Source: Cheilinus undulatus
Lineage: Eukaryota > Chordata > Actinopteri > Labriformes > Labridae
Reading direction: 5' to 3'
NCBI RefSeq assembly: GCF_018320785.1
Contig: NC_054884.1
Location: forward strand, 17,795,667 to 17,859,666
DNA length: 64,000 nt
The notes below the pieces were generated by a model. It did no database searches and was not told where the DNA came from. It was given only the letters and a program-made list of their open reading frames with translations. How positions within the stretch are numbered: the first letter of the stretch is position 1; every line of letters starts with the position of its first letter. Both the position numbers and the translations under genes were made by a program. This document shows, piece by piece, positions 25,172 through 57,047 of this stretch.

Positions 25172-25178
25172 TATAAGA
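25172..25178 (+). promoter_or_regulatory. Putative TATA box of the calymmin-like gene
   Basis: TATAAGA lies 116 nt upstream of the start codon, in the position expected for a TATA-driven, tissue-specific gene with a short 5' UTR. Supported by position and motif only. Confidence 0.5.
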
Positions 25179-25287: not shown

Positions 25288-25354
25288 ATGTTGGGACGGA
25301 TACTTCTTCAGGGGACGATGGTCCTTTGGCTGGTGCAGACGACACACACAACGG
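25288..25354 (+). CDS. cmn: Calymmin-like exon 1: signal peptide
   Basis: Encodes MLGRILLQGTMVLWLVQTTH plus two residues and one base (67 nt): a short basic start, a hydrophobic stretch and a polar end, as in a signal peptide. The donor is CGG|GTGAGT. Ending in phase 1, it can join any downstream cassette. Confidence 0.8.
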
Positions 25355-28300
25355 GTGAGTGAAGGCCTTGTCCAGAGTCGGTCATACCAAAGACAATGTT
25401 AGGACTGTGATATCTATTTTTATTTTATATTTGATCAAATATAAATCATACTAGTGATCTGCCTATGAATCTGTGTAATGAATTTATATTTAAGTTATAA
25501 CCTACATGTGCAGACTGGCAAAGGATTTCAATAAGGTTTCCTTCTCCATGAGTTAAGGTGGGAGGATGATGGTGAGGGTGTTATAAAGTCTTGTAGGTAG
25601 TCTCTAGAGGACTGTATTACACATGTATGACAAAATCACATTGAAATGATTCCTAAAACTGAACTATGTCTGAAAATCAAACAAATATACACAAAATTTT
25701 ACCCTAACAATTTTGAAATTGCCCCAGGTTAATTTCTAAGGATGTAATGGTCCATTGATATAGACTGTTGACTCAATGATCTAGCGTTTAATATGAACAG
25801 AGTACATTACTTCATCTAAAGATTACTCTGACTGATTAATCTGCAGACTGGCAAATATACATATAACTTTTGTTTTTATTCTAAACTATCATTATTTTTC
25901 ATTCAATTATCTAGAGAAGCTTATTGATAAAATTATCTAACAGCTTGTTTTTTTCTAGTGTAGTGACCTACATTGAATTTCATTGACTTAAGTGCTTGTC
26001 AGCTGGTCCAGCATCATGACCCACCACCAACTTTATTGGAGATCTTGACCCAAAATTTTCAAAACAAAAATATTTTAAATTCAAGATTAATCACATTAAT
26101 TGTGATTAACTAAGATCCACAATTAGTGCACTATTATTATTATTTTTTTAAATTGTAATTAATATGCCTTAATGGCCTTTTAAACACACTTTGGTTGAGC
26201 TACTGCAGCGTCTCCCTGCAGCCACAGTGATGTAAAATATGTCCACCAGTGCTCCTTAAAGTCTCATTTCACTTTAAAAACTCACAGATAGCTCAGTAGA
26301 TGAGTCGAAAGGCATCAGTATCTTGTCTTATTAAACTCTTAGCTTTTTAGTGTTTCCTTATTTCCTTTTTAGTCCATAACAAATTCCTTTTCCATGGTTA
26401 GATTTATGTTAAAGTCTTCAATCTACCTTTAAAAAGCAAGTCTGTATCCAAACAAGAAGTCTTTTGCCCTTAGCTTGAAAAATCAAAAATGATACAGAAA
26501 AATGTTCAATTCAAAATGGTGATGGAAAGGATTGATTAATCACAAACTACAGAAATACAGAGATTAATCTCAGTTTGAAAAATGTTATCATTTGACAGCC
26601 CTAATAACAAGATATGGCTATGTAATAATGAGAGTGCTTATGAGTAAAAAAACACATGGTTCACAGTCACACTGAGTGTTAAAGGTTGAATATTCATGCA
26701 CAACTGCTGTACGTTTTCAACAAGTAACATCTTTAGTTCACTGCTACTGATTGAAGTACATGTTGCTGCTAAGGTGTTAGAAGCTTAAAAGTGGAGCAAC
26801 GCATTAACTTGAAATTTTTGGTGAATATGAACTTGACAGCACATGATGCCCATGCACATCAAAAACTTCTGAAAACATTCAACAAATTGAACAAATCTAT
26901 CAAAATGATCGAGGACTCAGTATAAGCAGGATAGCAAAAATGATCTCCATTGGTAAAGGGTCAGTTTGGCAAATTTTGCACGAAATTTGAACATGGCAAA
27001 CGTGTGTGCCAAAGTTGTCCCAAAACTTCTGATTCCTGATCAAAAGGAAAAATGTAAACACATTTGTGGAGACATTTCAAAACAAATTGAATGGAAACTT
27101 TTTTTTTTTTTTAGAAAATTGCTCAAGTTTTAAACTAATCATTTTCTGACGCCTTAGCAAAAACCCATGCACGTCAGTCAGTAGCTAGCAGTGACCTAAA
27201 GACGAGAGTTAATGGAAACTTGCAGCAGTTGTGCGTGAATACCCAAAATGGATTGTTATCCCTGGAATTACAGTAAAATAATAAACGTCCACTTATTGAC
27301 TTTCTGCCACATTTGCAACCCTCTAAAAAAAAACCCTGGTAGGTCACATTTAGGTCCCAAACTGCCAGTTAAGAACCACTGCTTTAATGGATATTAAACA
27401 ATGTCTTATGTCTTTCCACTCTTTAAACTCATTGTTTTACTGCATGTTTTGTGGTTTTTGAAAAGAAAAAGAACTACAAACAAGCTGTGTACAAAAAAAA
27501 CTTTTGTTGTGTATCAATATTAGTTTAATTACAGTAATACAATAAGGGCATCCTTAACTGACAAACAGTAGATCGCTATTTTTATTTACAATAGAGGCTA
27601 CTTCCACTCTATTAAACGACAATGTAACTGGCTACACTTGCACAATTTTGTACTATAGGTCTGAAATGACAGGGACAAATATCCTTCCTGAATAGATATG
27701 AATTTTTGAGCAAGTACCATACATTTATTAAGTCTCCTATAACATCTTAAATGTTACAAACTCCACACTCTTGTGCACAGATGCTGCCCTTCAGAGAGGA
27801 AAAAAAAAAGATGAGTCGGATGTCTTTCAGATGCTCTGGTTTGCTCGTCAAATTTCAAACGATCCTGTTAGACTGAAATCCTAGAAACTCTTGCTGCTTT
27901 GCTCTTTTGGTGTGTGCCGCGGTCCTAACTTTTCTTGTGATGATGTGAAACAACGATATATTCTTTCCTTTGGGCCGGCGGTCTCAGCTCGAGAAATCAA
28001 AGGAGGCTCAGCCTCAGTGGCAGCAGGCATCTAAATTTAACATCCCACTGTGAGAGGAGAAGAGAATAGTTTTACTGCGTATACACAGTCACTCCTTTCA
28101 CTTCACTCAGTCTCTGCTCACTACTTCCCCAAAATGTTTGGCACACCTCTGAGAAACCAGGAGATTTTTTTAGAAGGTTGTAATTTAGGGACTGCCAAAA
28201 ATGATTGTGAGGAGGGGAGGGGAAACTTCTGGGTCAGGGTTTAAAAAAACAACATCCAGCATGCTTTAAGAAGCCTTTTTTTCGCTTTTATTTGGCTTTT

Positions 28301-31300
28301 AAAATGGTACCATGTCCTCTACATCATCCAAAAATAGGATTCTATTTCAGAGACTTCCCCATCATCAGATTCTTCTTCACTCAAAGCTCTGGGCAAATCA
28401 ATTGAAACTTCATGTAACATGTGACAATAACGGATATTTTTCTTTTGCTTGTGGTATCCATGTTGAAGGTTGATCTGTTTTCTGATTAGGCAGTGCAGCA
28501 ATAGAAGGGAGGTTTTCCATGAAAATGTCTATCGTTTATCTGCTGGTGTGAAATAAAACAGAGGGAACACTGATGGTTTCCTCTGGGATAAAATTTAGCT
28601 GCATGGCGGTCCTTAATAGCCATTTATAAAATTGAGTTATATAAACAATCTTAACAACACAAGGTGCAACAAAACAAACTTTTAGGATATTCAACAACTG
28701 ATATTGAAATTTTGTCAGTATGAGGTTAGACACAATTGAAGAACAGCTTTGGGTAAATATTAGCCAACAGTGGTTCAAGTGTTAAGGGTTTTCCATCACA
28801 AGTCAGCAGCACCACCATGAATGAGGTACAGCAACAGAGCGGCAGCTTCTGGTGGCTCTACCTGCTTCCATGTAGCATTTTTATGCTACATCCAGTGTTT
28901 CTATGGCACTGATAAACATTTTATTTCTGCCATGGCAGCTCTGTTATTGCAACTATTGACAAGCAAGGCCAACCATAAGGCGGGATATGGGGGAGAGCTT
29001 TCAGGGCACAGCCAGACTGGGGGCCCATGGAGGTCAGCAAAATCCTGGTTCATTGTAAGTTAAGCTGTGATAACCATATTTTTTTTATGCCTGAATAATG
29101 ACCACTCTGATCAAAGCAACAAAAAATAATTTCATTTATTTATGCTGTAGTACAATATACCTTTTTTAAAATTTAAACCCATATTTTTAATGCAGAAATA
29201 CCTTATTAGTGATGTTAACAATGCGAATAAATAAAGTATAAAAGACTGAGAAAACTTTTTTGGAAAAGAATAGACTTATTGGGATGAGACAAAATGGGTT
29301 GCAAGTGGCAAAAGTTGGCAAAAAGAAGTTGCAGAAAATGGCAAAAAGCAGCAAAAAAATTAGCAAAACACAATGCTACCATGGCTGCAAAGGTGCAAAA
29401 TGGGGTTAAAATTAGGGGGAAAGTGGTAAAACTGAGGTAAGGTGGCTTAAAAAAATGATAAAAATGGGCAAAAGTGGCAAGAACGGACAAGAAGCAGCAA
29501 AAAAGTGTCAAGTGGCAAAACATGGTCAAATATTGGCAAAAGATCGCATGGATAAAAAGTGCCAAAAAGGGGCAAAGGGTGGTCAGAATGGCATAAATTG
29601 GCAAAAAGTATTGAAAAAAAATTGGTAAAAAGCTGCTAAAAGGGACAAAAATGAATAAAACCTGGCTATATATAGGCATAAAGCAGCAAAAATGGCAAAA
29701 GGTGGCTAAATTAGGCAAAAAAATATGTTCCAGAAATAGGGAAAAAATGGTAACTTGACAAAAAAAAAATTACAAACATAGGCCAGACTGTGGCAAAAAA
29801 GGGCAAAAGGCAGTTTTTAAAAAGTGGCAAAACTAGGATAAACGTGGCAAAAGGATGCATCAATAATGGATGGAAAAAGTGGTGAAATGGGTTAAGAAGT
29901 AGCATGAATAAATTATTCTAACATCAGAACCCAATAATAGCCATCATAACTGGGGAGGGCCTGTTCTCTGGGTTTGTCAGGGGTCTGGCCAAACCTGTGA
30001 GCAGGCCTGATGACAAAACACCATAAAACTATAAAATTTGAAGATATCTCTGGTTTTGAAAAACGTTGTAAATATTTAAAGTAATGTAAGTGTTCAACTA
30101 AAGATATTCATAACATAGGAAAAGTCTTTTTTTTTTTAATTATAGGAGACATGACAATGCAAAAATTCTACATGTTGCACCTTTAAAGTTGAAATGGAAG
30201 ATCAGTGTCTTATATTTGTCACATTTTTAATCTGCAAACATTAACAGCAACTTATAACTTAGTTTGAAGAAAACCTCTTTCCTTGCTCACTGTCGCTGTC
30301 TATAATGCAATGATGAATATCATTTGTAATGTCTTGGTGAATATCGTTTAGTATGTTTGTGCTAGTTAGCCGTAAAGTTGATCCTAATAATGCAGGACTC
30401 CTGTCCTGTGTAGTAAGGAAGAGGACTACTGTGGATGTGTTGCTTATCTACATAAAATCTATGATGTTTTAGGATACAGCGCAGCATCTGGAGTATCTAA
30501 TGGACAAGGACCACAGCTTAATGGTAAATCAATACTATCTTCACTTTCTGTATTTCTGAGACACAAAATTCTTCTTGTTGGATTCCATGAAGACAGATCT
30601 TCTCTCGCTGTTCTGATCTTTCCAGGTAGGAATGGTAGAGGCGTTGGAGGAATGCTGATGCCATCAAAAGGTAAATTCATGTTTTATTTGGTTAGACACA
30701 AATTTATCTTTTCAGAATAATTTTTAAAGTTGTTGATTTTTACAATTTTTGTTAGGTGTGGGTCAGGCAATGGGAGCACAGAATGGATATGGTGGATACC
30801 CTTCTAAAGGCATGGGTGAGGGACATAAATCTGTTTTGCAGACTTGTCTGTTTTTTTAAAGAAATGCTGTTTTTAAATGTAAATTTGGCTTATTTGAATC
30901 ATAAATATATTTTTTGTTCTGTTTAAGGCTATGGAGCTGCTGCTGGTGTCGCAAATGGACAAGGTGGAAAATCACAGGGTTTGTATTCTTCCTTTGGGGA
31001 CCCATCTCTCTATTTGATATCAAGTTAAACCAGCAGATGGCAGCAAATGCAAAATATGTGGTCTCTGTTCAACAACTTTTCTCAAATCCTGTGGTTTAAA
31101 AGGGGATTTTGGTCGTTTTTAGCTCCTTATAGGCAAGGCAATCTTATTTAAAGAGCACAAAAGCATTTCAAAGGGATCAACAAAGTTCAAAGTAAAACAT
31201 TTATAGTACTTATGCACTAGAAATAAGAAAATATAAAGTATGTGAGAATATGAGGTCCAAAAAGAAATATGGAAAAAATAAAAGAATAAGTACAGTATAG

Positions 31301-34300
31301 ATAATCAGTAATAACAGGGCTATAGTGTCCCTGACAATGGGGTCTTATTGTCCCCACAGACAGATTTTCTGTTCTTGCCCAAAGAGATTCTGTTTAAAGG
31401 GACCCTGTATGTCAAGACATGTTGATACGTTGGATTAACATTTGTGTCTTTTGTATGTATGTCAAACATAAAACTATGTAGATTCCTCCATTTGGAGAAC
31501 ATGTCAAATAAATTTAGACATTGCTGCCATTGTTGTGCAATGCACTCTTGCACAACAATGGTTCGAATGAAAAAAAGCTTTAAGGAAAACGCTCCCTAGG
31601 AAGAACAATGCACCAATTTTACATCACTACCCAGTGTGCTTTGTGCAATTATGACAACATACATGTTAACTTATGTTTTAGATTTTCTCAAAATATTAAA
31701 ATGTACTGTTTCTATGCAGTTTCTTTGTACAGAGCCAGAGAAGCTGGTCAGTTTATCTCTAGTAGAATAGATTCTTCTAATAGTATTCTAACATGCCTTC
31801 CAGAAAAAGCCTGTTAAACAGCTGTAGTTCATTTAAAATCCATCTGCGAGACTCCTGACCAAAGTAAAGGACATCAAACACATAACCCCAGTGCCCAGAT
31901 GATTTTAGAATATATTTTAATTTTTTTGTAGTTTATAAGTCACTGACCAGCACAGACCAAGAGTACATTTCTGGAGCAAATTGATGAGCCCCAAACTTGA
32001 ATATTTTTAAACCCAGGTGGAAAACGTTTTCATGTGCCTTTGAATAAACCCTACACCTCACGCCTAAGTTTCATTGTAGTCCTAACTGCCTTTTGTAATT
32101 GATTGTATTATTCTATTTATACATTTTAACTTAATGCCTCTTTTGAACTGACTTTATTCTCTCAATTGTTTTATGTACTTAGTACTTTTATTTATATTGT
32201 AATATTTGCATCTGTGTTGTCTATCTTGTGTTGATGCTTCTTTTACCTATGTTATGCCTGAAATGTGCTGTATAAAAAAACATGCCTTGCCTTACAACAT
32301 ACATATAAAGACATTAAAGACATCTAAATTAACATCCGAGGGTTAACATCTGTCTTAATCTGCACAGCAGAACATCTTCCTGAGTTTTAGGCTCACAGCT
32401 GCCCTGGAAACCCTCACAGGAGTGCTGTTATAGTGAAATCTAACCTCAGCCTTGAACCCAAAAACTTCACCGATTGAAAATGGAATGATTAAAATAACTG
32501 ACAAATACTTCAGTCCTCAAACTTTCTCTGTATGTGCGTTTTAATTCCAGGAGGAAATCCAGCAGCTCTACCCAATGGAAATGGAGCTAAATCAAATGGT
32601 CTGTGTTTTAAATTCTCCCTCACAAGTTTCACCTCAGCCATTATTTGCTGCAGTGCAGTCATAGTCATTCTGGTGTCATTATTCCAGGATATGGAGTTCA
32701 AGCTGGCCCGGCCAATGGACAACAAATGAAAGGCAATGGTATGACACAAATGAATTCTCATTAAGCATTCATGCACACTCAAACAGAAACACACTTATGT
32801 CCAGTGTTTCTGTCTTTAAGGTTATGGTGCTCAGGCTGGTGCATACGGTGGACAAGGAACCAAAGGCAACGGTATTTTGATTTGATAATGTATCATATCA
32901 GAGATGAATCATATTTTTATGTGAGCCACTTGTGATATTTTTTCAAATCCCTACCAAAACACTCATGTGTAGTCTCTGTGTGTTTGTTTCCATGCTTGGC
33001 TCTTAGGTCATGGGGCTGTAGCTGGTGTTGGAACTGGAGCCAAATCAAATGGTGACAGACCATTTTGATGAAATGTCTTTCATTTATTTGCTCTGAATAG
33101 ATTATAAAGAAAAATGTGTTATGTTTGCAGGTGATGGTGCTGCAGCAGGTGGATTTGGAATGAAAGGCAATGGTGGGTACTCTCTGTTATATAGTTGTTA
33201 AGTTGTCCAATTTTATAATAATATAATTGCATGACTGGATAATACACAGCTGGAAATGTCTAATGCCATAGGCAGGTCTCCATATGATTCGAGAAGGCAA
33301 TAGATCTAAAGAAGTTGTTTTTGTTTTTGCAACATCGCCTATGTTCTAACTCATATTGATGACTATTAGTTGTAATAAATCCTGGTGTTTGTTGCAGGAT
33401 ATGGAGCTCAAGCTGGTCCAACTAATGGACAACAAATGAAAGGCAATGGTATGAAAACGTCCCATAAATGAGGAGCAGCACACACAAGTTCTGTACATGC
33501 ACACGCTGAGCAACATCACAGTCAAACTATACTGTTCACTCTCTGACAGGATACAGCGCACAGGCTGGTGGATATGGAGGACAAGCTACTAAAGGAAATG
33601 GTATTTTTAAATCATATGATTTCAAGGGCAAACTTTTTTTTAGTTTACGACCCATTTAAACTTCTAAACTCTTACAACCGCATAGCTTTAAACATTTGAC
33701 TCCTTACAACATCACGAGATATATTTGATCGCTGATTATTTTTCCTTTAATAAATGTATTGCCTAATTTTTTTAACTTTAAAGTTAATAACTTGTTTGTT
33801 GCTTTTTACTGCTAAAAGATACTTCAGTAAATATAAATATTGTATATATTTGCAGGTAATGGTGCTGCAGCAGGTGCACAAAGTGGACTTGGAACTAAAG
33901 GTAAGCATTATTATGTTAATATGTATTTACTGATACAATAATTTATCATAATCAGGTTTGGTTAAAGGGAGTGGAATCTGAAGAAGTCTGAAAGGGTTTT
34001 GATTTAAAAATTGCTGCTTTAGATGCCAAAAGTTTGTCCTTGCATCACCCAGCACTTCTAACTTTAGAGTTGTTTGTCTGGTTGGTTAATATGCAGCATA
34101 AAAAAAGACTTTAGGTGCCAGGAAGAGGAGGATGTCATCTTGTAGAACTGGCAAAATATTGCACTTAGCTCCCAAGTGTTCTACATACAGTCATGTGCAT
34201 AAGTTTTAGGCATATAGGGAGCCAAGGATTCATTAGGGGGCCCGATGTGCCACGGTGCAGGACTGGAGCACAGGAGGTTGACCAGAGTCAAGAGGAACAC

Positions 34301-46300: not shown

Positions 46301-49300
46301 GACTGAAACTGCAAATGATACAACACTGCACATTTTAATTTAATTCAATAAAAAAACCCTTGTCTTTGTTATTCATCAACTAAGTGTATCATTTTTTAAT
46401 TGCTTTTAGGTTTTGGAGCCGGAGCTGGTGTTCCTAATGGATATGGCTCTAAGCCAAATGGTACTTCATACTTTATTTTCTAATTTTAGGTTTATTAAAT
46501 TGTTGGTGTTTTGCAGGTGCAAACAGAATTTTTATTTAAAGAAATAAAGGCTTTGATCCTCGTGAATGTAAACATACCCCAAGCCTAATAAAGGTGTTCT
46601 TCTGACATTGTTTAGGTTATGGTGCCAGTGCAGGGGGATATTCTAATGGGGGAGGAGCTAAAACAACCAAACCAAGTAAGAAACCTTTTTTTTCTACTGT
46701 GACATCAAACATTTTTATTTTCCCATGTGAAGACATTTAGATGAGATGCTTTTCGATGTCTGCTTCAGGGAAAAACAATACAGAGATATAAATTTTCTAA
46801 TTGGCATACTTAACTGAAAACTATGACTTCATTAAAAAAAAGAAATAACCTGTAATGTCCTGAATGTGATGAATGCTGTGTTACTTGCCCTGCACAGACC
46901 CACTCTGGTGGCAACTATTCATTTATAATGTCTGCTCCTCTGTGGTTTTACAGGGGAAAACCTCACAGGGATGTCTGAACTATGGCTTGTGGGCCAACTG
47001 TGGCCAATGGTAGAGGTCCATTTTTATTTGGCACCCCTCCAAAAACTAAATAAATAAATGAATTAAATAATATTAAAAATTGATTAAACCTCAAAAAACT
47101 TTTTTTGAATGGAATAAAATATTTAAATGTGAAGATTATTCTTCTTTCTGCTCCTTTTCATTCAAAGTGACAGATTTAACTTTGGATATGAATTGTTTTG
47201 TTTTATTGAATGAAATAAACATAAATATCTGAATAAATAAAAGAAACTTGTGCTTGTGAATTTAAAACTTTCACTTTACCTGCCCCTTTTGTGTTGCCCC
47301 ATTTTCCCACTTCACTTAGTTATTGTCTTTTTGCACATTTTTGCTGCTTTTTCCCTCTTGTCACCTATTTTTGACACTTTAAACCTTTTTGCCCATTTTG
47401 TTAACCCTGCAAAAGCAGATGGATTTGCCTGTTTTTCGTGTTTCTCACTGGTGAATCCATCTTGTAAAGCTCCCGTCTGAACTGTTTGGGCCCGGTTAAA
47501 AAATGACAGGACGAATCAGGAGTAAGAGGCAGTACTTTCGAGCGCGGCGGAGTCGTGACGTAAACAAGCAGCAACAAGAGGCCGGTGCAATTATGGCGGA
47601 AGAGATTAGCATGGATGCTGCTATAGCACCAGTTTTATCAGAACTTGACAACATTTTTTCATTAAAGGAAGAACAAAGAACAGCAGTGAGTTGTTTTCTT
47701 TTCAAGAACGACAAAAGTCGTGTACTGACATGTCTGCAGCCGCCATGGTTCACGTTATGCAGTTCTTTATGGAGTTTACTCCTCAGTAGGGACGCAGCTC
47801 AGTAGCTGCTACGTCATGTGTTTTGTTGCTCTGATTGCCCCGTAAAAATGTGACAGAACATTAATCTAATCACCCTCCAAGTTTTTTTTTTAAGCCTCTG
47901 CCTTTTCCCAAACACTGTCTATGGAAGGTTTTCCAGATGGATGTGTGAAACAAATCCATCTGGCGTGTCAGGTTACATTTTTGTCCTTTTAAATCCCTTT
48001 TTTCCCCCTTTACCACCTGTTGACCCTGTTTTCCAACTTAACCAATATTTGCCCTTCTTCACCAATTTTTGCCACTTGTTGCTAACTTTTCAATGTCTTT
48101 TTGACACTTCATCAATTTTAGCCTCTTTTTAGCCACTTTGAACCCATTTTGCCACCATTTTCTGACCCTATCCACATTAATAACATTACCATAAAAAAGA
48201 TCACTCTGTTTTAAAGACAAGGGGTTAACATTTTTTAAAAGCTATATTGTACTACAGCATAAATAGATAAAATTCATTTTCATGTATTTGTTGCTTTGAT
48301 AAGAGTGGGTAATATTCAAAGTCAAAAATAAAATATGGCTATTATAGCTTAGATTTCTAATGGATCATGATTTTGCTGACTACCATGGTCCCCCAGGTTT
48401 GGCTGGGCCCCAGAAAGCTCTCCCCTTTCTACCCCTTTGTGGATTATTAATACTTTTACTAATTCTAATATATTAGCATGGTCTGATCATCCTTATAATT
48501 TTTTGATGTGTCCCTCCCAAGATTGGAAGTCCCTGAACTAATGAATAATATTTTGTTTATCCAAAGGTTATGGAGCAGGAGGCTACCCTGTCCCTAGACT
48601 GAGCAATGGATATGGAGCTGGTAATAAATACTGTCAATATAAACATCAGTGAAATTTTTTTTTTTTTTTTTTTTTTTAATGTCCAAGAAAATGTTCAAAG
48701 TATGCCGTTTGTGTCCTCAGGACTTGGAAATCCTTATGCAGGGAAACCTCAGCAGCCTGGTGAGTCGCCCTCCACTGACAACGTAGCGTTCATTAATGGC
48801 TGTAATGAAGATGGGAGTGTATTTTCATAAATTGTTTGTTTGCTCTCAGGTTATGGACAGGGAGCATACCTTGGAGCTGGATATGGAAATGGAAATCCAT
48901 ATGGAGGTGAGTTTAAAGAAGTTATGAGTCACATCTGTAACGAAATATGCAAAAACAATCCTTGAATTGCTCTACTATAAGTTCCTTTAAGTCAAGCCAG
49001 TAGGATTTATGAAGCTGATTATCATTATTTGCTATAAGGGGCTTTATAATCATGTGATGTTACTCTGTTTGGGTATGGCAACTTTGGGGGGGAAATCAGA
49101 GAAGCCTTAAAAAGAGCAATACAAGAAGGATAAACTACAAGTGAAGGCTCTTTGTTAGACCAACACAAAAAAAGATAACGTTGCAAATTCTTAAAAATGA
49201 GCCTTTTTTTTCTCTAGGTTATGCGGGTCAAGGCTCAGCAGCAAAGTCCAAATCATGTTGGCTGAAATATTAACAAAAGCTTGAATGATAAATGCATATA

Positions 49301-52300
49301 ATAACTATTTGTATGCGATTTTAACATGGAGTTACTGAAGGCCTTTCATCTCAGCCTAGAAATCTTAATCCAACCACGTAAGGCAGGTTTTGTTGTTTTG
49401 TCTTTAGGGTATGGAAATGGAAATGGAAATGGCTACAGTGCTGGTGTGCAGCCAGAGTTTGCTGGTAAGCATTATCTTATGAAGAAACTTATTAACTCTT
49501 TACTTAAATCAGTGTGTATTTTGCTACTTTCATTAACATGATTAAGAATAAAAGGATAAAACAAAATCTTTTTTTTTTTTTTTTTTTTTAGGTCTTGGAC
49601 AAGGTTTACCTACTGCCAGTGGCAGATTCGGTATGTTTAGGGTTGCAAAATTAGGACAAACTTAATGTAAAACATGTAGACTTAATAATGTCTTTTTTTG
49701 ATTATTATTCAGGTGGTGCCAAGCAGAGTCCTTACAATGGAGCCCCAGTGATTCCTGCTGGACTTGATGGTAAGAGGATGTAAAAATATGACTTAAGCAC
49801 GAGTGAAAAGTGAGATTATCCTGTAAGAAGGATAATCCAGAGTATAATCTACAGCAGGGAAACAAAACAGTAATAGTAACCAAACACCAGTAAGAGTTCT
49901 GAGGAAACAAAAACTATTACTGATGTTGGATTATTTACTATGTGTGTGAAAATAGAGGAGATCAGAGTGGATGAAATCCATGATGCTGATATGCAGGACC
50001 TTTTAGCTTGTAAGACTAGGAGCTCCTAAACTTTGCCCTGCCAAGGACTCCCATTTAGCATTTATCTCCAGCAAGTTCCCCCACTCTTGAAAAATGTCTT
50101 GAATTCTTTGCACATAAGAAATACCCCAAACTGAAAGTAATAATCTTTTTAGTCTCATCATTCAACATATTTATTGTAAACAGTTTATTAGAATTATTGT
50201 CTCATCAATAATCAATTGCTATGTTAACATTAAAAATATTTCTTATTAATTCAGTAGATATTGTTTTTCTTATCTGTTATAAAATGGTCTGTTGAATTCA
50301 TACTCAATAAGTTTCAGGAGTCACATGAATAGTAGTAATGGCAGTGATTACTCCTCGTTTCAGTCCCTAACAATATTCACATTCTGGCCGCTAGAATTGT
50401 ATGTGTTATTCTATTAAAGTGATTGATACGGAAGGAAACACATATATTTCAAGATGCCTTGATGCAGTGTCTGTCAAAAATAAGTGATTAGTTGGTCTTT
50501 AATTTTGTTCCATTTGTCCCCCTTTTTACTTTAAGCTTCCACATCCCCTGTAGAGCTCTCTGGTCAGCCCCTCAGGACCCTCACTTTGAAAAACAGTTAA
50601 TATCTAATATCCAGTTTGTAGGTCTCTTAGTATCACAATAAACCACTAACATTTCTCATGAACTCATACAGGAATGAGTCAGTTTGAGCCTCAGTCTGCT
50701 GGTCTTGGTCCAAATGGAAAAACCAGCAGCATGTATGGTGGTACGTATGAAAACCATATTAATCCTGTAGAACACAACAGATAAGAGCTGTATTTAGAAA
50801 ATAAAATAACATACAAGACATGCCCTGATAGCATTAAACATTTATAGATATTGTTTAATGTTTCAGGACTGGGTGGCATGCCTAATGGTGGTCAGCCTAT
50901 GGGAATGGGTGCAAAAAAATCAAACACAAAGTATGGTGAGTGCTTGTTTGTCCTGTTTCAGCATTTAAATAATTTAAGGCTTTATGTTTAAAGATAAAAC
51001 CTTGCGGATAAAGTACTTTCTCATTACCCATTATTGTCTGCCTGTGTTTGTTTCAGGTATTGGTGGATTGCAGTTTGGTGGACAGCCACTCAACAGAGCA
51101 ACTAATGGTGCAGGAAGTTATGGTAAGCCTGTGTCATTATTGCAATTTCAACTTTCTCACTGATTCTGTGGAAATAGATATAGTTCTTGATTCAAAATGT
51201 AAGTGAATTCATTCTCAGTCCATGTGTTGACAGAACATACCTTATATTCTGTCTTACTGTGTGATCAAGGATAACCTGTTTGTCTCATCACTGTCCAGGA
51301 TATGCTGGAAGCCCCTATGGACCTGCCGGTAATGGAAAATATGGTGGGTCAAATTAAAAAATAAAATGAAGTATCATATGTAGAGCTTCAAAATGTAAAA
51401 CAAACCACCAAACATTTATTTTATGCTTATGTGGAGATATTTGTGTCATGGATTTAACTATCTTGCAGGTGGTGCTGGCACCGGGGGAAACCCTGGACCA
51501 CAGAAATATGGTCAGTATCTAAAGAGAGAGTTTTGTATTTACTGCAGTGGTTTGTGTTTTAAATACACTTCAATCTAAAAATAACTTCTCATTTGGTCTT
51601 TTTCTTTACTAATGTGTAATACTTTAATGCTGTCCATTTTTTTCTGTCATTAGCATATCTCGGTTCTCCTACTGGTGGGCTACTCCCTGGTCATGGCAAT
51701 GGAAATACACCTGGAAAATATGGTAAAGATTTAGTTAGTATTTGTTATAGTGATTTCCTTGCCAGCATCCACTTCCCTTTATTTTTCTCATCTTTTTTTT
51801 GTTTCTCCGTGGTCAGGTTATGGAAGAATGCCTTATGAGGCTCAGCCAGCTGGACTGAGCCCTGGAGCCAAATCAAACGGCAAATATGGTAAATAGATAA
51901 TCTTTTTTTTTTTTTTAGATTAACAGACAAATTTAATGGAGGCCAGAAGGGGGTTGGGTAAATTGTGTGCCAAAAACTTTTCAAATGGAAAAGATTTTTT
52001 TTTTTACATTCAGATAAAGGACAAAGGTGCCACTATAGCTACAGTCTGTGGTGCTGATCAGAGGGTGCTTTGGATGACATTTAAAGACATTTAAATGGTT
52101 GAACATTTCTGTGTATGTTTGTGCAAAAACAACCGTCCATGTCTGGTTAAAGCAAGGGGTAGACAACCTTGCAAAGCACATGGATTTGTCATACTCCATC
52201 TCTGCCAACAGGCAAATCCATCTTGAAAAGCTCCAATCACCAACGTTAGAACCGAACACTGATTGAGGCGATAGTTATGCACGGGGATTAGTTGTACTAG

Positions 52301-55300
52301 AAACCGTTTACAATCGCTACTGCTGGTGCGGTGATTAGCTCAGATTTAGCCATAGTATAGTGGCAGTTTTACCAGAACTGGAACCCATTTCTGTACAAAA
52401 TAAAGACTAAAAGCTTATGATGGAAAACTTGTTTTTGCTCTTCTTCCAACCTGCTTCAGCACAAGTTTTTGAGAGTTACAGGGCAAGTGGTTAGATGCAG
52501 TGTGAGTGGGTATAGTGGCTGCTAGTGGAGTGATGAGCTCAGACGTAGCCACAGCGGCAGTTTTGTCAGAACTGGACAACATTTTTTTAAGAAGACAAAG
52601 AGCCACACCAAAAGCTTTTTGTGATGGAGAAGATATTTTTGCTCTTCCCCTGACTGCTTTGGCAGGGTTCTGCGATCATTACGGATTGCATTAGCTATTT
52701 GTGTAAAAATGCCATTATTTTGAAGTCTTTTTGTCACAGAATGATAATTTTTTTTTCACTTTTTGGTCCCAAAGAGATGGGAGAAAGAGTTTTTACAAAA
52801 AAGGCTTAGTCATTAGTATTTACTGTTAGTAATGCATACAAATCTTTGAGTTTTAATATCCATTTTTTCTTTCTTTCTTCTTTGTAGTCCCTACTTTAGT
52901 AACTTTTTTGTTAATTCAAGTGACATCACTGCAGCACATGCATTCGTAAAGCCAAAGTTGTCCTGAAAAAAAGGATGTTGAGAGCTTGACTGTGCACCAA
53001 AATGCAGGCAAGATAACAAGAAAACAAAAAACAAAAAACGTAGGGCTCAGAGGGTTAATTTTCTTTAAGTCTTTACAAATTTGAGTGAAAAAGAACACAC
53101 CTTTTAACATCAAAGCTGAAAGTAAGAGCCAAGATATCATAGCCAGTTTTTTCAGAAGATGCATAACTTACTTATGCTGATGAATGTTATTCATTTTATG
53201 TTGAGATTCAATTTTCTCTTTCTGGTTTTCCTTACAGGTCCGGCTGCAGCACAGTATCAGCCTGAACCTCTCGGATATGGACAGAATGGAAAATTATCAG
53301 GACAATATGGTGAGATTTAGCTGACATAAAACAACCTTATAAACAAACCTCTTTTCAAATATATTTCATTTAACTTTCGATTTTTGTGTGATTGCAAAGG
53401 GAAGTGAAGTTCCTTACGCACCTGAAGCTCATGGTTTTCAGAGTCGGGCAAAATCTTCTGGGAAATATGCTACAGAATATTTTTTAATTTGTTATTTGGA
53501 TATAAAACATTGTATTGTCTATGTTTGTAATCTTGTCAACCTTCCACAGGCAGCCAGAGTCCGTATAAGTCACAGCCTCTTGAATCTACATCTGAAGTGA
53601 GATCTGGTGAGGAATATGCAATTCTTGATATAGTAATGATACGTAAGTTGTTAATTTGGGTTTGAGATATATAATTTTAAGTTTATAAATGCTTGTCTTT
53701 TTTACAGAAACAGATGGCTTATCTTATGACCCCCTGCCTGTGGAGCCAAATTCAGCTGGGAAATCCTTCTGTGTGTCATCAAAGTGTTTCAAACATTCAG
53801 CAGAGCCTGATCTCTTATTTCCTATCACTAATTTTTCCTCCTTATTTTTCTCCTCTTAGTGAAAGGAGGGGTACAGACTCCAGTGACTGCAGCTGAAGGT
53901 GATGGGATTGATAGATATGGTCAGTATATTTCTGTGTGTCTGTTTGTTTTGGCATTTCTTCATTTAGTTAACTTTTAAATGTTTGTCATTTTCAGAAAAT
54001 GTGGGCTATATAAACGGACAGGTACAGCCAGAAGGTAAAACTACTGCACCATTTTTTTTATTATGTAGATTACAAATTAAAACATGAGTCAAAACCAACC
54101 ACCTTTTCCCTACCCTGTGTGTCTGCTTACTTATGTTTTCTCTACAGTTGTTAATTTCCCAGCAGCTCCCACGCCTGGTCCCACCCTGGCCTACCAATCC
54201 GCCCCGTCCTATCTGCCTGTGGACTCGTCCTTCACTCCTGATGTTACACCTGGAGCAGGTCTGGAGGACTTACCTGACCCTGCAGGCACTACCAGCCTCG
54301 CCTTAGACTCGTCACCTGCAACAGAAACGCAGGGTGTGGTTCAGCTGCCCGATCAGCCTGATGATCAACAGCAGCTGCCACGTCAGATTCACATTCAGCA
54401 GCATCTCAAGCTGCATTTTCACCAACAAGGCAAGTCCAGAAAAGGTTAAAGTTCAGTGGCTTGAATTAAGAAAATTCCTTTAAAGTGAAGAAAGCATGGT
54501 TTCCTTTAAATTGTTAAGAAGAGGAAGATTAAACATGTATTGATTTATCTCTTAGGGTAAACATTTATATAGAGCATGATGTGGGAAAGAAGAGTCAAAT
54601 TATTCAATATTTGAAAAGCATGCTGCTTTTAAATTCAGCACAGCTGTTTATGTTTACTGCTAGCCTAGCTAGCTACCTCAAAAACTAGCGGGAAACCTCC
54701 ACTGTGATTTATTTACAGAAGTTTTCACATTTTCTTAGGAAGATTTGGAGGGCTTTTTTTGGCTCCCTTTCTTAATGCAAGTAAAATAAGATCAATACTG
54801 CTCTAATGTCTGTAAACTATGTGAATCTACAGCCACAAGTTAGTTTGATTAGCTTAGCATTAACGAGCTGTGCCTAAAATGACCCTCTATTTACTATTAA
54901 TTATGATATAATCATAGTAATTATACTTCAGACAGCGTTATCGCACCGCTGTCTGAATTAATACTGAACTCCTCTGTGAAGAAGACACTTTGTATGCCAA
55001 AATGCATCAGGAAAAGTAGCATACAACAGATAACAACCAAGAAACATAACCACAAAGCAAAGGAAAATTGGGCAACACTTTATTTTAGTGGACCTAATTA
55101 CCTACTAGTTTTATAGTAATATGTGTAATTAACTACTTATTTCTGAAGAATAAGGTGGTAATTACCTTGTAATGAGTTGGAACTTTAAGAATAATAATGC
55201 AGAAATATGGTAATATTAAGGAATGTATTAGTTAACCACTTATTTGAAGCCGATAAATCAGCCATACATATCAGCAGTATAAATCATGCATTGGCCTTAA

Positions 55301-56652
55301 ATGTCGGCAAATGTACAAATGTTTTAAGTATAGATGGTTGTCCAGGGTGCCACACACTCAGGGAGAACGGCTGTGAGCATTTTGATTGAACCTCAAGGAT
55401 ATGAACCTTGCAAAGAAGATGGATTTGCAAGACTCTGTCTGTCATCAGGCAAATCTACATTGAAAAGCTTTAGTTGGAGCTGTTTGCAATGGCTGCTTCC
55501 ACTGTGGCAAGTAACTCAGATATAGCTCTATTTTACCAGAGCTTAACCCCATTTCTGCATGAAATAAAAACAACATAAAAGCTTTTTTGATGGGAAAGGG
55601 TTAGTCTTTGTGTGAGTGGGTTTATACAATGGATGTAAGAGAAGTGGAGCTTGGACTTTGCCACAGCTGCGGTTTTGTCAGAACTGGACAACATTTCTCT
55701 ATTAAAATAAGGGCAGAGAGCAACACTTAACATTATTCCCTCTCTGTTTGCTACTGTGTAGTCAACAGCGGTAGAAAAATATACAACAAGTAAAAGTACA
55801 GTTACTGTGGTTAAAGCTTACATAAATAGAGGTAAAAGTACTGATTTTAAAATGTAAACTGGACAAGTGAAGTGAATGAAAGTACAACTACCCCAAAAAG
55901 TACCCAACTACAGTTATTTGAGTAATGTAGAGAGTTACTTTCCAGCCCTGATATTACAACATAGTCATATTAAATGTCAACACCCCAGTAAAGATAAATG
56001 TAGAAAGAAGGTACATGTATGTTTTGAAAGTTTTAAACTATCCTTAACAGTGAATGCATCATTCCAGGTTGTTGGAAGCATAGTTCCTTTATCCTCACTA
56101 AAAGATATGTTCATAGTTGTTTTGCCTTGTTAATGTTTCATTTATAGTCATTAGTGTTCAGGTAGCTTGTTGGCTTGGTTCTGGATGAAAAATCTTGAAG
56201 CAAGGATTTTTATAAAAATGTCAATGGAGGATTTTAATGTTGAATTTTATTTCTGGAACCAGAGCTGTCAAAAAAAGTTGGTGGGCACTGTTTAGCTCAG
56301 TTAATTTGTCCCTAATTGCTAAGCTAAACTAACTGGGTAACAGCTGTAACTTTATTTTTACTCTATGGAAGAAAGAGTTTTATCAATCTGTCTAACACTA
56401 AACAAAAAGCCAGTGAGACCATTTCCCCAAATGTATTGCTTAAAATAACAGAGTCCATGGTAATAAAGCTTAAGAGTAACAGTTGTCCTTTTTTTCCCCT
56501 CATGTTCAGGAGCAAAGAATGGAAAATATGACTTGAACGGCTTCTTTGGGAACAGTGGCTATCAAGGTAAGACTTCGACTGACATGATTGTCATTATATT
56601 GTTTTTCTCAGCCCTCTGCTCATCTGTTACTGTTTTTCTCCACCTAGGTTAA
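25288..56652 (+). CDS. cmn: Calymmin / GREP1-like glycine-rich extracellular matrix protein
   Basis: Predicted secreted, elastin-like matrix protein; zebrafish calymmin is a notochord-sheath component. I trace 57 coding exons (blocks listed separately), 3,843 nt, 1,280 residues plus stop. It starts at ATG 25288 (context CCACC) with a hydrophobic signal peptide and ends at TAA 56650-56652. Internal exons are all multiples of three with phase-1 junctions, and typically encode one G-Y-G-A-x-A-G...N-G-x-G-A-K-x-N module. Three long exons (393, 297 and 282 nt) are Pro/Glu/Gln-rich instead. No cysteine-rich or enzymatic domain is seen. The identity rests on the repeat style, the signal peptide and the location beside paqr4 (human GREP1 lies beside PAQR4, from memory). 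Another Gly-rich matrix family remains possible. Confidence 0.75.
26070..26605. mobile_element. Non-autonomous hAT-like element, one end recognisable
   Basis: Contains GATTAATCACATTAATTGTG near the left and ends in TTTGACAGCCCTAATAAC, the form seen, from memory, at the ends of fish hAT-derived repeats. The left terminal repeat is missing or eroded. There is no transposase. Confidence 0.5.
26890..27110 (+). mobile_element. Mariner transposase relic (N-terminal part)
   Basis: Two frames joined by a frameshift near 26985 read like the helix-turn-helix part of a mariner transposase: GLSISRIAKMISIGKGSVWQ, then CAKVVPKLLIPDQKEKC. It is cut off at a T-run at about 27100. No terminal repeats found. 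Confidence 0.65.
28988..29910 (+). repeat. Dispersed repeat with an internal degenerate TGGCAAAA array (copy A)
   Basis: From 29270 to 29900 the plus strand is a long, imperfect reiteration of TGGCAAAA-like units (GGCAAAAGTGGCAAGAA and variants). The non-repetitive flank (28988-29170, including GGGGGAGAGCTTTC and AGTCAGCAAAAT-like segments) recurs in reverse orientation at 48240-48435. This is therefore a dispersed element carrying its own minisatellite, not a local microsatellite expansion. Confidence 0.7.
30473..30978 (+). CDS. cmn: Calymmin-like exons 2-5
   Basis: Exons 30473-30523, 30626-30670, 30756-30815 and 30928-30978 (51, 45, 60 and 51 nt), all phase 1. They give the first Gly-rich modules, such as GYSAASGVSNGQG and GYGAAAGVANGQG. 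The short introns (85-112 nt) have consensus or near-consensus splice sites. Confidence 0.78.
31130..31300 (-). repeat. SINE/L2-tail-like repeat
   Basis: 'ggcaaggcaatcttatttaa' followed by an A-rich tract with a 'ttcaaa' theme resembles a very common fish L2-related tail, from memory. It sits in the 1.6-kb intron between exons 5 and 6; the rest of that intron shows no exon. Confidence 0.45.
32551..33900 (+). CDS. cmn: Calymmin-like exons 6-13
   Basis: Exons 32551-32598, 32688-32738, 32821-32871, 33007-33051, 33131-33172, 33398-33448, 33550-33600 and 33856-33900 (48, 51, 51, 45, 42, 51, 51 and 45 nt), all phase 1. Modules include GYGVQAGPANGQQMKGN and its near copy GYGAQAGPTNGQQMKGN, showing that exons 7, 8 and 10 and exons 11-13 come from a block duplication. 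Donors are mostly AATG|GTatga or AATG|GTattt; exon 6 has a weaker GTCTGT donor. Confidence 0.8.
34186..34706. mobile_element. Short inverted-repeat element (Tc1-like MITE)
   Basis: Starts TACAGTCATGTGCATAAGTT and ends AAAAGTTATGCACAGTACTA, imperfect inverted repeats of about 20 nt with Tc1-like ends. No convincing transposase is visible in the 520-bp interior. It lies in the intron between exons 13 and 14. Confidence 0.65.
34737..38851 (+). CDS. cmn: Calymmin-like exons 14-29
   Basis: Exons 34737-34787, 34905-34955, 35055-35111, 35202-35240, 35602-35649, 35737-35817, 35900-35950, 36036-36083, 36176-36220, 37000-37041, 37143-37184, 37281-37328, 37417-37467, 38467-38520, 38619-38711 and 38795-38851. 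All are multiples of three (39-93 nt) with phase-1 borders. Typical modules: GYGAGSGVPNGNGAKTN, GYGATTGASNGQGAKTN, GYGAGAGAVKGNGAKSN. Exons 19 (81 nt) and 28 (93 nt) are double-length modules, possibly from exon fusion by intron loss. Confidence 0.8.
35285..35575. mobile_element. Palindromic DNA-transposon remnant
   Basis: A segment GTGATTTAAGTGACTTTGAA near 35320 recurs inverted as TTCAAGGTTACTTAAATCGC near 35398. The right end, GGTGTACCTAATAAAGTGAT, is a familiar fish transposon terminus, from memory. It lies between exons 17 and 18. Confidence 0.55.
36240..36800. repeat. AT-rich repeat with recurring 'taattacc/ggtaatta' motifs
   Basis: Many short direct and inverted copies of TAATTACC/GTAATT-like words occur in the intron between exons 22 and 23. 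A similar block is at 55075-55240. No coding content. Confidence 0.5.
37690..38325 (+). mobile_element. Tc1-like element with transposase helix-turn-helix remnant
   Basis: Left end ACAGTGCCTGTAAAAAGTAT at 37691. An open stretch at 38078-38320 reads as the DNA-binding region of a Tc1 transposase ([35 protein letters not shown]). The catalytic half is missing. It is related to the minus-strand copy at 2483-2960. It lies in the intron between exons 26 and 27. Confidence 0.8.
38955..39347 (+). CDS. cmn: Calymmin-like exon 30: long Pro/Glu/Ala-rich segment
   Basis: 393 nt, phase 1 to phase 1. It opens with one normal module (GYGQMPYGKGTGATNGKS) and then becomes a non-repeat stretch rich in Pro, Ala and Glu with a short hydrophobic patch (GIIVMVTQEG) and EPAP/PEPEP runs. 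The frame-preserving donor is CAAG|GCAAGT, a GC donor; the nearby GTATCC would break the phase. Reading through would meet a stop at 39380. Confidence 0.75.
39650..40390. repeat. AGCT-rich degenerate repeat
   Basis: Irregular reiteration of TTAGCTAAAGC/GTAGCTA words at 39650-39735 and again at 40165-40390, split by an inserted element (39733-40170). No coding content; intron 30. Confidence 0.55.
39733..40170. mobile_element. Non-autonomous DNA element inserted in the AGCT-rich repeat
   Basis: Left end TAAGCCCCTATTTACATGAT and right end GTGCGAACAGGGCCTAAG are imperfect inverted repeats of the 'AGGCCCTGTTTACAC' type seen in fish hAT-like MITEs, from memory. The same AGCT-rich sequence flanks both sides, so the insertion is visible. 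The overlapping open frames are not read as genes. Confidence 0.6.
41568..42540 (-). mobile_element. Tc1-like non-autonomous element
   Basis: Left end (about 41572) TTTTATGTTTTGTTATGTTG pairs with right end CAACATAACAAAATGGAAAA (about 42511). The interior, including 'gttcaatagggttcaagtca' near 41941, matches a widespread fish Tc1-related repeat in reverse orientation, from memory. The open stretch at 42013-42342 is non-coding repeat. It lies in intron 30. Confidence 0.75.
42667..42963 (+). CDS. cmn: Calymmin-like exon 31: long acidic segment
   Basis: 297 nt, phase 1 to phase 1, acceptor CTCTAG and donor ACTG|GTAATT. Starts GYVTGDAVPEQTVTEADVV and continues as a Glu/Val/Pro/Thr-rich stretch with recurring VPE and PEEA words. 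With exon 30 it forms a spacer of about 230 residues that splits the two Gly-rich repeat regions. Confidence 0.75.
43936..48906 (+). CDS. cmn: Calymmin-like exons 32-39
   Basis: Exons 43936-43992, 45577-45630, 46244-46288, 46410-46460, 46616-46675, 48567-48620, 48721-48759 and 48850-48906, all multiples of three with phase-1 junctions. Modules return to the Gly-rich type (GFGAGAGVPNGYGSKPN, GYGQGAYLGAGYGNGNPYG). Exon 33 carries one Cys (DCGPSGVPNG), rare in this protein. Exon 36 ends in A instead of G, changing one junction Gly to Ser. Introns 32 and 36 are long and full of repeats. Confidence 0.75.
44050..45000. repeat. Dispersed repeat in intron 32
   Basis: Begins with CTAGGGCTGCTAGCAGCACT and ends near AATAATAGAGAGAAGAATTC...GGGCCCTAA, a pairing familiar from fish genomes, from memory. 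The class is not determined. No exon is seen inside. Confidence 0.45.
47255..48435 (-). repeat. Dispersed repeat with TGGCAAAA-type array (copy B), interrupted
   Basis: Reverse-orientation relative of 28988-29910: degenerate TTTTGCCA-like units at 47255-47412 and 47969-48180, then a unique flank at 48240-48435 matching the start of copy A. The array is interrupted by the element at 47413-47968. Confidence 0.65.
47413..47968 (+). mobile_element. Hairpin-ended element with RecQ-helicase-like scrap (copy 1)
   Basis: Both ends contain GATGGATTTGCC-like words in inverted arrangement (near 47416 and 47960), so both termini seem present. Inside, an open frame from 47593 reads MAEEISMDAAIAPVLSELDN and then IFSLKEEQRTA. 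In fish genomes this kind of text precedes the ATP-binding region of RecQ-like helicases in repetitive DNA (from memory). The rest of the helicase is missing, so this is a deletion derivative. Confidence 0.6.
49218..49256 (+). other. Candidate weak-donor exon of the calymmin-like gene
   Basis: Behind a good acceptor (TTTTTTCTCTAG) lies a 39-nt phase-1 module, GYAGQGSAAKSKS. Its only frame-keeping donor is the poor TCAT|GTTGGC, and using it would put Trp at the junction instead of Gly. It could be a rarely used cassette or a decaying exon. It is left out of the 1,280-residue count. Confidence 0.45.
49408..53309 (+). CDS. cmn: Calymmin-like exons 40-50 (KYG-type modules)
   Basis: Exons 49408-49464, 49592-49630, 49713-49769, 50672-50740, 50867-50935, 51057-51122, 51299-51343, 51469-51510, 51654-51722, 51817-51888 and 53238-53309, all phase 1. 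From exon 44 on, most end in a Lys/Gln-Tyr dipeptide with the codon split TAT G|GT (TKYG, GKYG, QKYG, GQYG), unlike the N-G endings of the first half. Exon 40 contains a GGAAAT hexamer run (GNGNGNG). Exon 41 follows an uninterrupted T-run ending directly in the AG at 49590-49591. Confidence 0.78.
52135..52740 (+). mobile_element. RecQ-helicase-like repeat (copy 2)
   Basis: Same family and orientation as 47413-47968: CAAATCCATCTTGAAAAGCT near 52202, then two related segments, near 52365 and 52560; the latter reads AAVLSELDNIF followed by RATPKAFCDGEDIFAL in a neighbouring reading. Lies in the intron between exons 49 and 50. Confidence 0.55.
53401..53469 (+). pseudogene. Fossil KYG-type exon with both splice sites lost
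   Basis: Exactly 69 nt, as in exons 43, 44 and 48. In the expected phase it reads GSEVPYAPEAHGFQSRAKSS and ends in GKY plus the first base of the Gly codon, with no stop. The base pair before it is GG, not AG (the AG one base earlier would shift the frame into a stop), and the bases after it are CT, not GT. It cannot be spliced in normally. Confidence 0.7.
53550..56652 (+). CDS. cmn: Calymmin-like exons 51-57: C-terminal region
   Basis: Exons 53550-53606, 53708-53770, 53860-53919, 53996-54034, 54148-54429, 56510-56566 and 56648-56652. The Gly modules fade into Ser/Pro/Glu-rich text (GSQSPYKSQPLESTSE). Exon 55 (282 nt) is Pro/Asp-rich and then Gln/His-rich (PDDQQQLPRQIHIQQHLKLH). Its donor is either a GC site CAAG|GCAAGT at 54430 or GTTAAA at 54445; both keep phase. 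Exon 56 restores a Gly-rich end (YDLNGFFGNSGYQ) and exon 57 supplies only the last bases of Gly and TAA. Confidence 0.75.
55075..55240. repeat. 'taattacc' type AT-rich repeat
   Basis: Resembles the block at 36240-36800 (recurring GGTAATTACC and TAATTAACTA words). Lies in intron 55. Confidence 0.4.
55395..55735 (+). mobile_element. RecQ-helicase-like repeat (copy 3)
   Basis: Third co-oriented copy: GATGGATTTGCAAGACTCTG near 55420, AATCTACATTGAAAAGC near 55451, and TTTTGTCAGAACTGGACAAC near 55673 encoding VLSELDNI. It shares the two-segment arrangement of copy 2. No intact ORF. Lies in intron 55. Confidence 0.55.
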
Positions 56653-56890: not shown

Positions 56891-56896
56891 AATAAA
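56891..56896 (+). terminator. cmn: First poly(A) signal of the calymmin-like gene
   Basis: AATAAA about 240 nt after the stop. A second AATAAA at 57042-57047 could end a longer transcript. Confidence 0.6.
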
Positions 56897-57047
56897 ATCA
56901 GTGAGTTTTCTTGATTGAATTTGATGTTATTTGCTCAAAATGATCCTGTAAAATGCAAAGAAGTGTAATTTATGTTGCATGGGGAATGGGTTTTCCACTA
57001 ATGTTGCAGGGATCTGTTTATTGTTGTACAGAATATGACTGAATAAA

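Follow-up and report, generated by a model that had tools for sequence, protein, structure and literature searches.

A 57-exon gene of uniformly phase-1 cassettes in Cheilinus undulatus, probably encoding the notochord-sheath protein calymmin

A single gene on the + strand occupies positions 25288-56652 of the 64,000-nt window of Cheilinus undulatus DNA analyzed in this study, with 57 coding exons and a coding sequence of 3,843 nt specifying 1,280 amino acids plus a stop codon. A preliminary description of this DNA had claimed that all internal exons (39-393 nt) of a 57-exon gene have a length divisible by three and begin and end in phase 1. This observation is confirmed here, as a length divisible by three was found for all 55 internal exons and phase 1 for all 56 junctions. 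The best explanation for this structure, which we consider probable, is that an apparently single-copy gene, orthologous to calymmin and encoding an elastin-like, Gly-rich matrix protein that is secreted, grew by the addition of cassettes.

Exons were identified and curated by eye on the sequence itself, with the aid of a purpose-written exon finder left free in phase. As the curated set was picked partly with the phase-1 pattern in view, controls were conducted, which are reported below. The exon model is sequence-derived, and an exon that both starts and ends in phase 1 is hereafter called 1-1. The motif TATAAG (25172-25177, + strand), read in the sequence and located by script, is a candidate TATA box. 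Exon 1 (25288-25354, 67 nt) encodes a putative signal peptide, MLGRILLQGTMVLWLVQTTHTT, called by eye, and ends in phase 1. All subsequent exons are on the + strand too, and exons 2 to 56 are all 1-1.

The first cassettes are exons 2 (30473-30523, 51 nt), 3 (30626-30670, 45 nt), 4 (30756-30815, 60 nt), 5 (30928-30978, 51 nt), 6 (32551-32598, 48 nt), 7 (32688-32738, 51 nt), 8 (32821-32871, 51 nt), 9 (33007-33051, 45 nt), 10 (33131-33172, 42 nt), 11 (33398-33448, 51 nt), 12 (33550-33600, 51 nt) and 13 (33856-33900, 45 nt). They are followed by exons 14 (34737-34787, 51 nt), 15 (34905-34955, 51 nt), 16 (35055-35111, 57 nt), 17 (35202-35240, 39 nt), 18 (35602-35649, 48 nt), 19 (35737-35817, 81 nt), 20 (35900-35950, 51 nt), 21 (36036-36083, 48 nt), 22 (36176-36220, 45 nt), 23 (37000-37041, 42 nt), 24 (37143-37184, 42 nt), 25 (37281-37328, 48 nt), 26 (37417-37467, 51 nt), 27 (38467-38520, 54 nt), 28 (38619-38711, 93 nt) and 29 (38795-38851, 57 nt). 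Next come two long exons, the Pro/Glu-rich exon 30 (38955-39347, 393 nt) and the acidic exon 31 (42667-42963, 297 nt), and then exons 32 (43936-43992, 57 nt, split codon Glu), 33 (45577-45630, 54 nt, split codon Asp), 34 (46244-46288, 45 nt), 35 (46410-46460, 51 nt) and 36 (46616-46675, 60 nt, last base A, giving a split Ser codon). Exon 33 holds the sole Cys of the 1,280-residue protein (residue 756).

The 3' part of the gene carries exons 37 (48567-48620, 54 nt), 38 (48721-48759, 39 nt), 39 (48850-48906, 57 nt), 40 (49408-49464, 57 nt), 41 (49592-49630, 39 nt), 42 (49713-49769, 57 nt), 43 (50672-50740, 69 nt), 44 (50867-50935, 69 nt), 45 (51057-51122, 66 nt), 46 (51299-51343, 45 nt), 47 (51469-51510, 42 nt), 48 (51654-51722, 69 nt, split codon Ala), 49 (51817-51888, 72 nt), 50 (53238-53309, 72 nt), 51 (53550-53606, 57 nt), 52 (53708-53770, 63 nt), 53 (53860-53919, 60 nt), 54 (53996-54034, 39 nt), 55 (54148-54429, 282 nt) and 56 (56510-56566, 57 nt). 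The coding part of exon 57 (56648-56652) only completes a Gly codon ahead of TAA, and the protein ends in NGKYDLNGFFGNSGYQG. A candidate poly(A) signal, AATAAA, lies at 56891-56896 (+ strand), with a second one at 57042.

The commonest internal exon length is 51 nt (11 of 55), followed by 57 nt (8 of 55), and introns range from 76 to 5,118 nt (median of about 117). All 56 acceptors are AG, and the donors are GT in 54 cases and GC in two. The GC donors are required at 39348 (after exon 30) and at 54430 (after exon 55). Both GC-AG introns begin with an identical donor, AAG/gcaagt (39348-39353 and 54430-54435; the slash marks the exon end), each directly behind a long exon that is poor in Gly. 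Hairpin folding at these donors does not exceed that of shuffled sequences (z of 0.72 and -0.54), and two GC-AG introns among 56 are not significantly many at a rate that we assume to be 0.9% (P = 0.09). The model is uncertain at exon 52 (weak donor, scoring 1.5, and last base T), as to where exons 53 and 55 end, and as to whether a further exon lies at 49218. The alternatives seen are in phase 1 too: exon 53 has a 39-nt form ending at 53898 that is likewise 1-1, and exon 55 could end at a GT at 54381 or 54444, again in phase 1.

How far does the phase pattern depend on the way exons were chosen? A finder with no coding score and free phase, run on the gene strand at a penalty of -8, returned 51 exons, 34 of them curated ones, with 44 of 50 junctions in phase 1, a longest 1-1 run of 16 exons and a score of 134.7. 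In the reverse-strand control, the best six runs (up to 25 start codons tried) had 14-15 of 32-34 junctions in phase 1, a longest 1-1 run of 4 and a score of up to 52.4. In eight simulations with a third-order Markov model, 7-14 of 25-42 junctions were in phase 1, the longest run was 3 and scores were 35.6-60.8. Looser settings blur the pattern. The first, loose finder run (penalty -6) contained 106 exons, 64 of the 104 internal ones being 1-1 and 40 having other phases, and the no-coding finder at penalties of -4 to -7 produced many other-phase junctions because chance exons were added, with 4 to 7 curated exons per run placed in another phase.

Adding a coding model brings up a rival reading, in which phase 1 would be the wrong frame, real exons being read in phase 0 or some exons being chance splice-like stretches. 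When the model was started from a generic composition, the finder indeed fell into a phase-0 frame at penalties of -9, -10, -12 and -14. The scores were 441.6 at -9 and 397.9 at -10, and at these two penalties 30-31 curated exons were used in that frame. However, the phase-1-trained model scored 688.5 at -10, against 397.9 for the generic-start run. Lifting the phase constraint at this penalty left the phase-1-trained model unchanged, with every one of its 56 junctions in phase 1 and 55 of 57 exons identical to the curated ones; the two sets differ in a 9-nt exon at 49218, which replaces exon 52, and in the end of exon 55. At -8, again with the constraint lifted, 62 of 64 junctions were in phase 1. 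Fully unconstrained training at -8 gave 61 of 66 phase-1 junctions and recovered 55 of the 57 curated exons along with 12 others, which mostly represent stretches of long introns and include exons 2 and 55 with alternative ends.

Properties of the exons themselves also speak against phase 0. None of the 55 internal exons has a stop when read in phase 1, whereas stops interrupt 20 of them in phase 0 and 36 in phase 2, leaving 55, 35 and 19 exons open in phases 1, 0 and 2, respectively. We also compared internal exons of equal length with one another (52 exons, none longer than 93 nt) and retained the 12 pairs whose identity reaches 68% or more. When sites are sorted by their place in the phase-1 codon, these pairs differ at 47 first, 32 second and 84 third positions, each out of 204 sites, an excess at third positions (chi-square P = 2e-6) that is indicative only, as pairs share exons and are non-independent. 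Finally, the signal-peptide exon runs into phase 1. Given its stops, its lower score and the third-position excess seen in phase 1, the phase-0 reading was rejected and has, in our judgment, next to no chance of being correct. The gene is coding in the phase-1 frame, and the phase-0 outcome of the generic start is a training trap.

The preliminary description had added that the codons split by introns nearly always encode Gly (G/GN), and this holds for 48 of the 56 junctions; the others are Glu (three) and Asp, Ser, Ala, Leu and Val (one each). With a protein Gly content of 23%, so many Gly codons at joins exceed chance expectation (binomial 7e-23). G is the base at 54 of 56 exon ends and at 49 of 56 exon starts. 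The splice consensus prefers G on either side of a junction, which yields GGN in phase 1. Gly at joins can therefore be explained by the match between a phase-1 G/GN codon and the G/gt...ag/G splice consensus. Judging from these splice-site preferences, a Gly-rich protein and the splice consensus would reinforce each other at the joins, and no further device would be needed.

Uniform phase has the consequence that had been claimed for it, that exons can be skipped, gained or lost with the frame spared. Among the 1,596 possible forward joins of an exon to any later exon (56 of them real), only two create a stop (exon 52 to 54 and exon 52 to 56) and 1,258 create a Gly codon, so that such events are nearly always harmless to the frame. 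This tolerance is a real property of the sequence.

The common cassette pattern is GYGAQAGxxNGQxxKxN, and Lys is placed in it non-randomly. At least one Lys is present in 44 of the 55 internal cassettes, vs. 35.3 expected (reached in 2 of 2000 shuffles), and exactly one in 32, vs. 19.5 expected (0 of 2000 shuffles). The last seven residues contain a Lys in 36 cassettes, vs. 17.5 expected (0 of 2000 shuffles). Gly falls below 15% in the three long exons (30, 31 and 55), which are rich in Pro and acidic residues, and in two short ones (51 and 52). Not all exons are thus Gly cassettes, although the phase rule covers all of them.

Many cassettes are homologous repeats of one another, as illustrated by exon pairs 7/11, 8/12, 14/35 and 14/20, among others. 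Exon 7 is the closest duplicate of exon 11 (5 of 51 sites differ) and exon 8 is a duplicate of exon 12 (13 of 51). We considered a recent block duplication of exons 7-10 into exons 11-13, which is unsupported by either intron homology or exon periodicity. Introns 7 and 11, which lie next to the exons of the best duplicate pair, lack clear homology (score of 49.0, with a shuffle maximum of 49.5), and so do introns 8 and 12, 6 and 10, and 9 and 13. Similarity among exons 2-29, the range covered by the permutations, exhibits no significant period at offsets 1-6 and 8 (permutation counts of 181-1621 of 2000). With neither clear intron homology nor a significant exon period, the duplications would therefore be old or would have involved single exons.

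Under our favored scenario, the gene would have grown as a small phase-1 exon, some 51 nt long and encoding roughly G-Y-G-A-x-A-G-x-x-N-G-x-x-x-K-x-N, was duplicated repeatedly. Each cassette would contribute a flexible Gly-rich spacer and mostly at least one Lys, and cassette number would thereby set chain length and the count of possible cross-link sites. Phase 1 would have been inherited from intron 1, which follows the signal-peptide exon, and would have persisted since the gain, loss or skipping of a copy leaves the frame unbroken only if that copy is 1-1.

Traces of cassette loss were sought within the window. When the 55 internal peptides were compared by tblastn with the masked sequence (E up to 5), three matches were obtained, two of which are on the - strand (E of 0.32 and 0.50). 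The third, at 53409-53468 on the + strand, is 45% like exon 49 over 20 amino acids (E of 0.003, for one of 55 queries). It belongs to a stretch between exons 50 and 51 (53400-53468, + strand) that, having no GT donor and not being in the expected frame, is probably a dead cassette, which we did not count. An nhmmer nucleotide profile of 52 exons detected no intron relic at E up to 10, and the relic search thus demonstrates one relic at most. A further stretch, 49218-49256 (+ strand), has a good acceptor (5.6) and a weak donor (1.2); undetected by tblastn and nhmmer and likewise not counted, it possibly represents a cassette that is weak or in decay.

In the uniform phase the preliminary description had seen a system for length variation, and these features bear on the idea that it was selected as such a device, cassette variation through splicing or among haplotypes tuning sheath length and cross-link density. 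The idea is plausible, as stops arise in only two of the 1,596 forward joins (56 real) and Gly in 1,258, while weak donors (scores of 1.4-2.1) are found at exons 5, 8, 12, 19, 35 and 52. Moreover, human tropoelastin, which has phase 1 borders too, yields 13 known splice isoforms (PMC7947355, PMC3458006), and a sea bream transcript mentioned in the literature bears the name 'Calymmin isoform X1', a hint that two or more isoforms may have been predicted, and nothing beyond that. However, inheritance from one duplicated phase-1 exon would account for the pattern with no need for selection, and we regard a selected device as rather unlikely. Only tentatively do we suggest that cassette number might be a live tuning knob, with exons gained, lost or skipped among haplotypes, stages and species and dead intronic cassettes recording the turnover. 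If so, the sheath would change in length and in cross-link density with each step, the unit of change being a single cassette, mostly with a Lys.

Several introns contain repeats or pieces of putative mobile elements. Intron 26 contains a relic of a Tc1/Sleeping Beauty-type transposase at 38039-38320 (HTH_SB, 4.4e-7, below the curated cut-off), and intron 1 contains an interspersed repeat at 26081-26288 with at least 40 further matches in the genome (76-83% identity). Introns 46676-48566, 51889-53237 and 54430-56509 have repeat pieces in common (73-84% identity), which probably represent one mobile-element family, and intron 36221-36999 shares a 76-nt piece with intron 54430-56509. Upstream of the gene are a reverse transcriptase fragment at 9183-9503 (RVT_1, 6.5e-16) and pieces with LIM domains at 1654-1971 and 4060-4344. 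An open frame at 15430-15687 presumably resembles a Pat1-like (PATL1) protein; Pfam returned nothing for the overlapping ORF 15549-15875 in another frame, nor for a shortened, approximate copy of the neighboring 15123-15509. Downstream pieces of an HlyIII/PAQR domain are located at 58506-58853 (below the curated cut-off) and 62516-62971 (above it).

As for the identity of the gene, its product most probably is the orthologue of calymmin (cmn), a protein of the teleost notochord sheath, the two having been matched by the description of calymmin. Passages of the literature describe calymmin as a teleost-specific notochord-sheath protein with weak similarity to elastin (PMC7988777, PMC12174470, PMC6981171), citing Cerda 2002 and Peskin 2020 as the primary studies. 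They tie it to notochord-led vertebra formation and report hemivertebrae and clefts in the cmn mutant spondo (PMC7988777, PMC12174470). By this description, the likeness is that of a bony-fish matrix protein that is elastin-like yet not elastin. Features of this type here are the by-eye signal peptide and the Gly-rich cassettes, while likeness to elastin lies in architecture and composition only. An assignment to the notochord sheath would fit calymmin as described, and the literature passages on calymmin give no exon structure. The preliminary description of the product as elastin-like is likewise supported, in that this is an apparently secreted matrix protein whose gene is made wholly of symmetric phase-1 cassettes. 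In Pfam, the whole protein matches no family up to an E of 1. A search of the genome of the species (1.17 Gb, 46 contigs) with the whole protein, in which 36 of 43 candidates were scored, gave 15 matches, none of them outside this locus. A second search, with the Pro/Glu-rich stretch of exon 30, gave one match (11 of 11 candidates scored); no second copy was thus found among the candidates scored with these two queries.

Could the gene instead be tropoelastin itself (elna or elnb)? Phase-1 cassettes, Gly richness, short Lys-bearing exons and a separate signal-peptide exon would all be expected of it, and the 11 KP dipeptides (including one KPAKP) may point the same way, fish ElnB being described in PMC12733013 as having KP domains. 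Lys residues are also sometimes close together, with 16 overlapping places among the 67 Lys where two lie at most five residues apart. However, several sequence hallmarks of tropoelastin are lacking. Among motifs of KA cross-link domains, the whole protein has no KAAK or KAAAK, no AAAK and a single AAK; among those of hydrophobic repeats, it has no VPG, PGVG or VGVAPG and seven GVP. Val accounts for 4.8% of residues, and Asn, Gln and Tyr together for 18%. The single Cys is residue 756 and not C-terminal, and a C-terminal Cys domain ending in GRKRK (RKRK tail) is absent, as the protein ends in NGKYDLNGFFGNSGYQG. On these hallmarks, tropoelastin was set aside as a most unlikely identity. A tropoelastin query of approximate sequence found no match in the genome, a result that is uninformative given the query.

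The gene can also be compared with better-known matrix genes. Like fibrillar collagen genes, it encodes a Gly-rich matrix protein in a long array of in-frame exons. Collagen helix exons are in phase 0 and encode Gly-X-Y, whereas in the protein described here G-X-Y triplets (with X and Y other than Gly) never follow one another in runs of four or longer. With tropoelastin genes it shares many short exons, phase 1 borders, an exon per domain, a signal peptide and Gly richness. Human tropoelastin is listed with 'phase 1 intron/exon borders' (table note in PMC3458006) and described as having one exon per domain, with 34 exons and 13 isoforms through alternative splicing (PMC7947355), and the devil-ray eln gene is described as having 70 exons, with several copies of 36- and 48-nt exons (PMC12733013). 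By this analogy, the gene architecture is one already known from elastin-type genes, and the phase uniformity is not special to the present gene. What differs is the sequence: exactly one Lys in 32 of 55 cassettes instead of the Lys pairs of KA domains, a Val-poor and Asn/Gln/Tyr-rich composition with neither VPG repeats nor the Cys/GRKRK tail, and three long exons with little Gly but much Pro and many acidic residues. Should the gene prove to be calymmin, a vertebra-linked teleost sheath protein would have the gene architecture of elastin without its sequence hallmarks, and would provide a second fish matrix gene for comparing cassette number, cross-link spacing and spine form across species.
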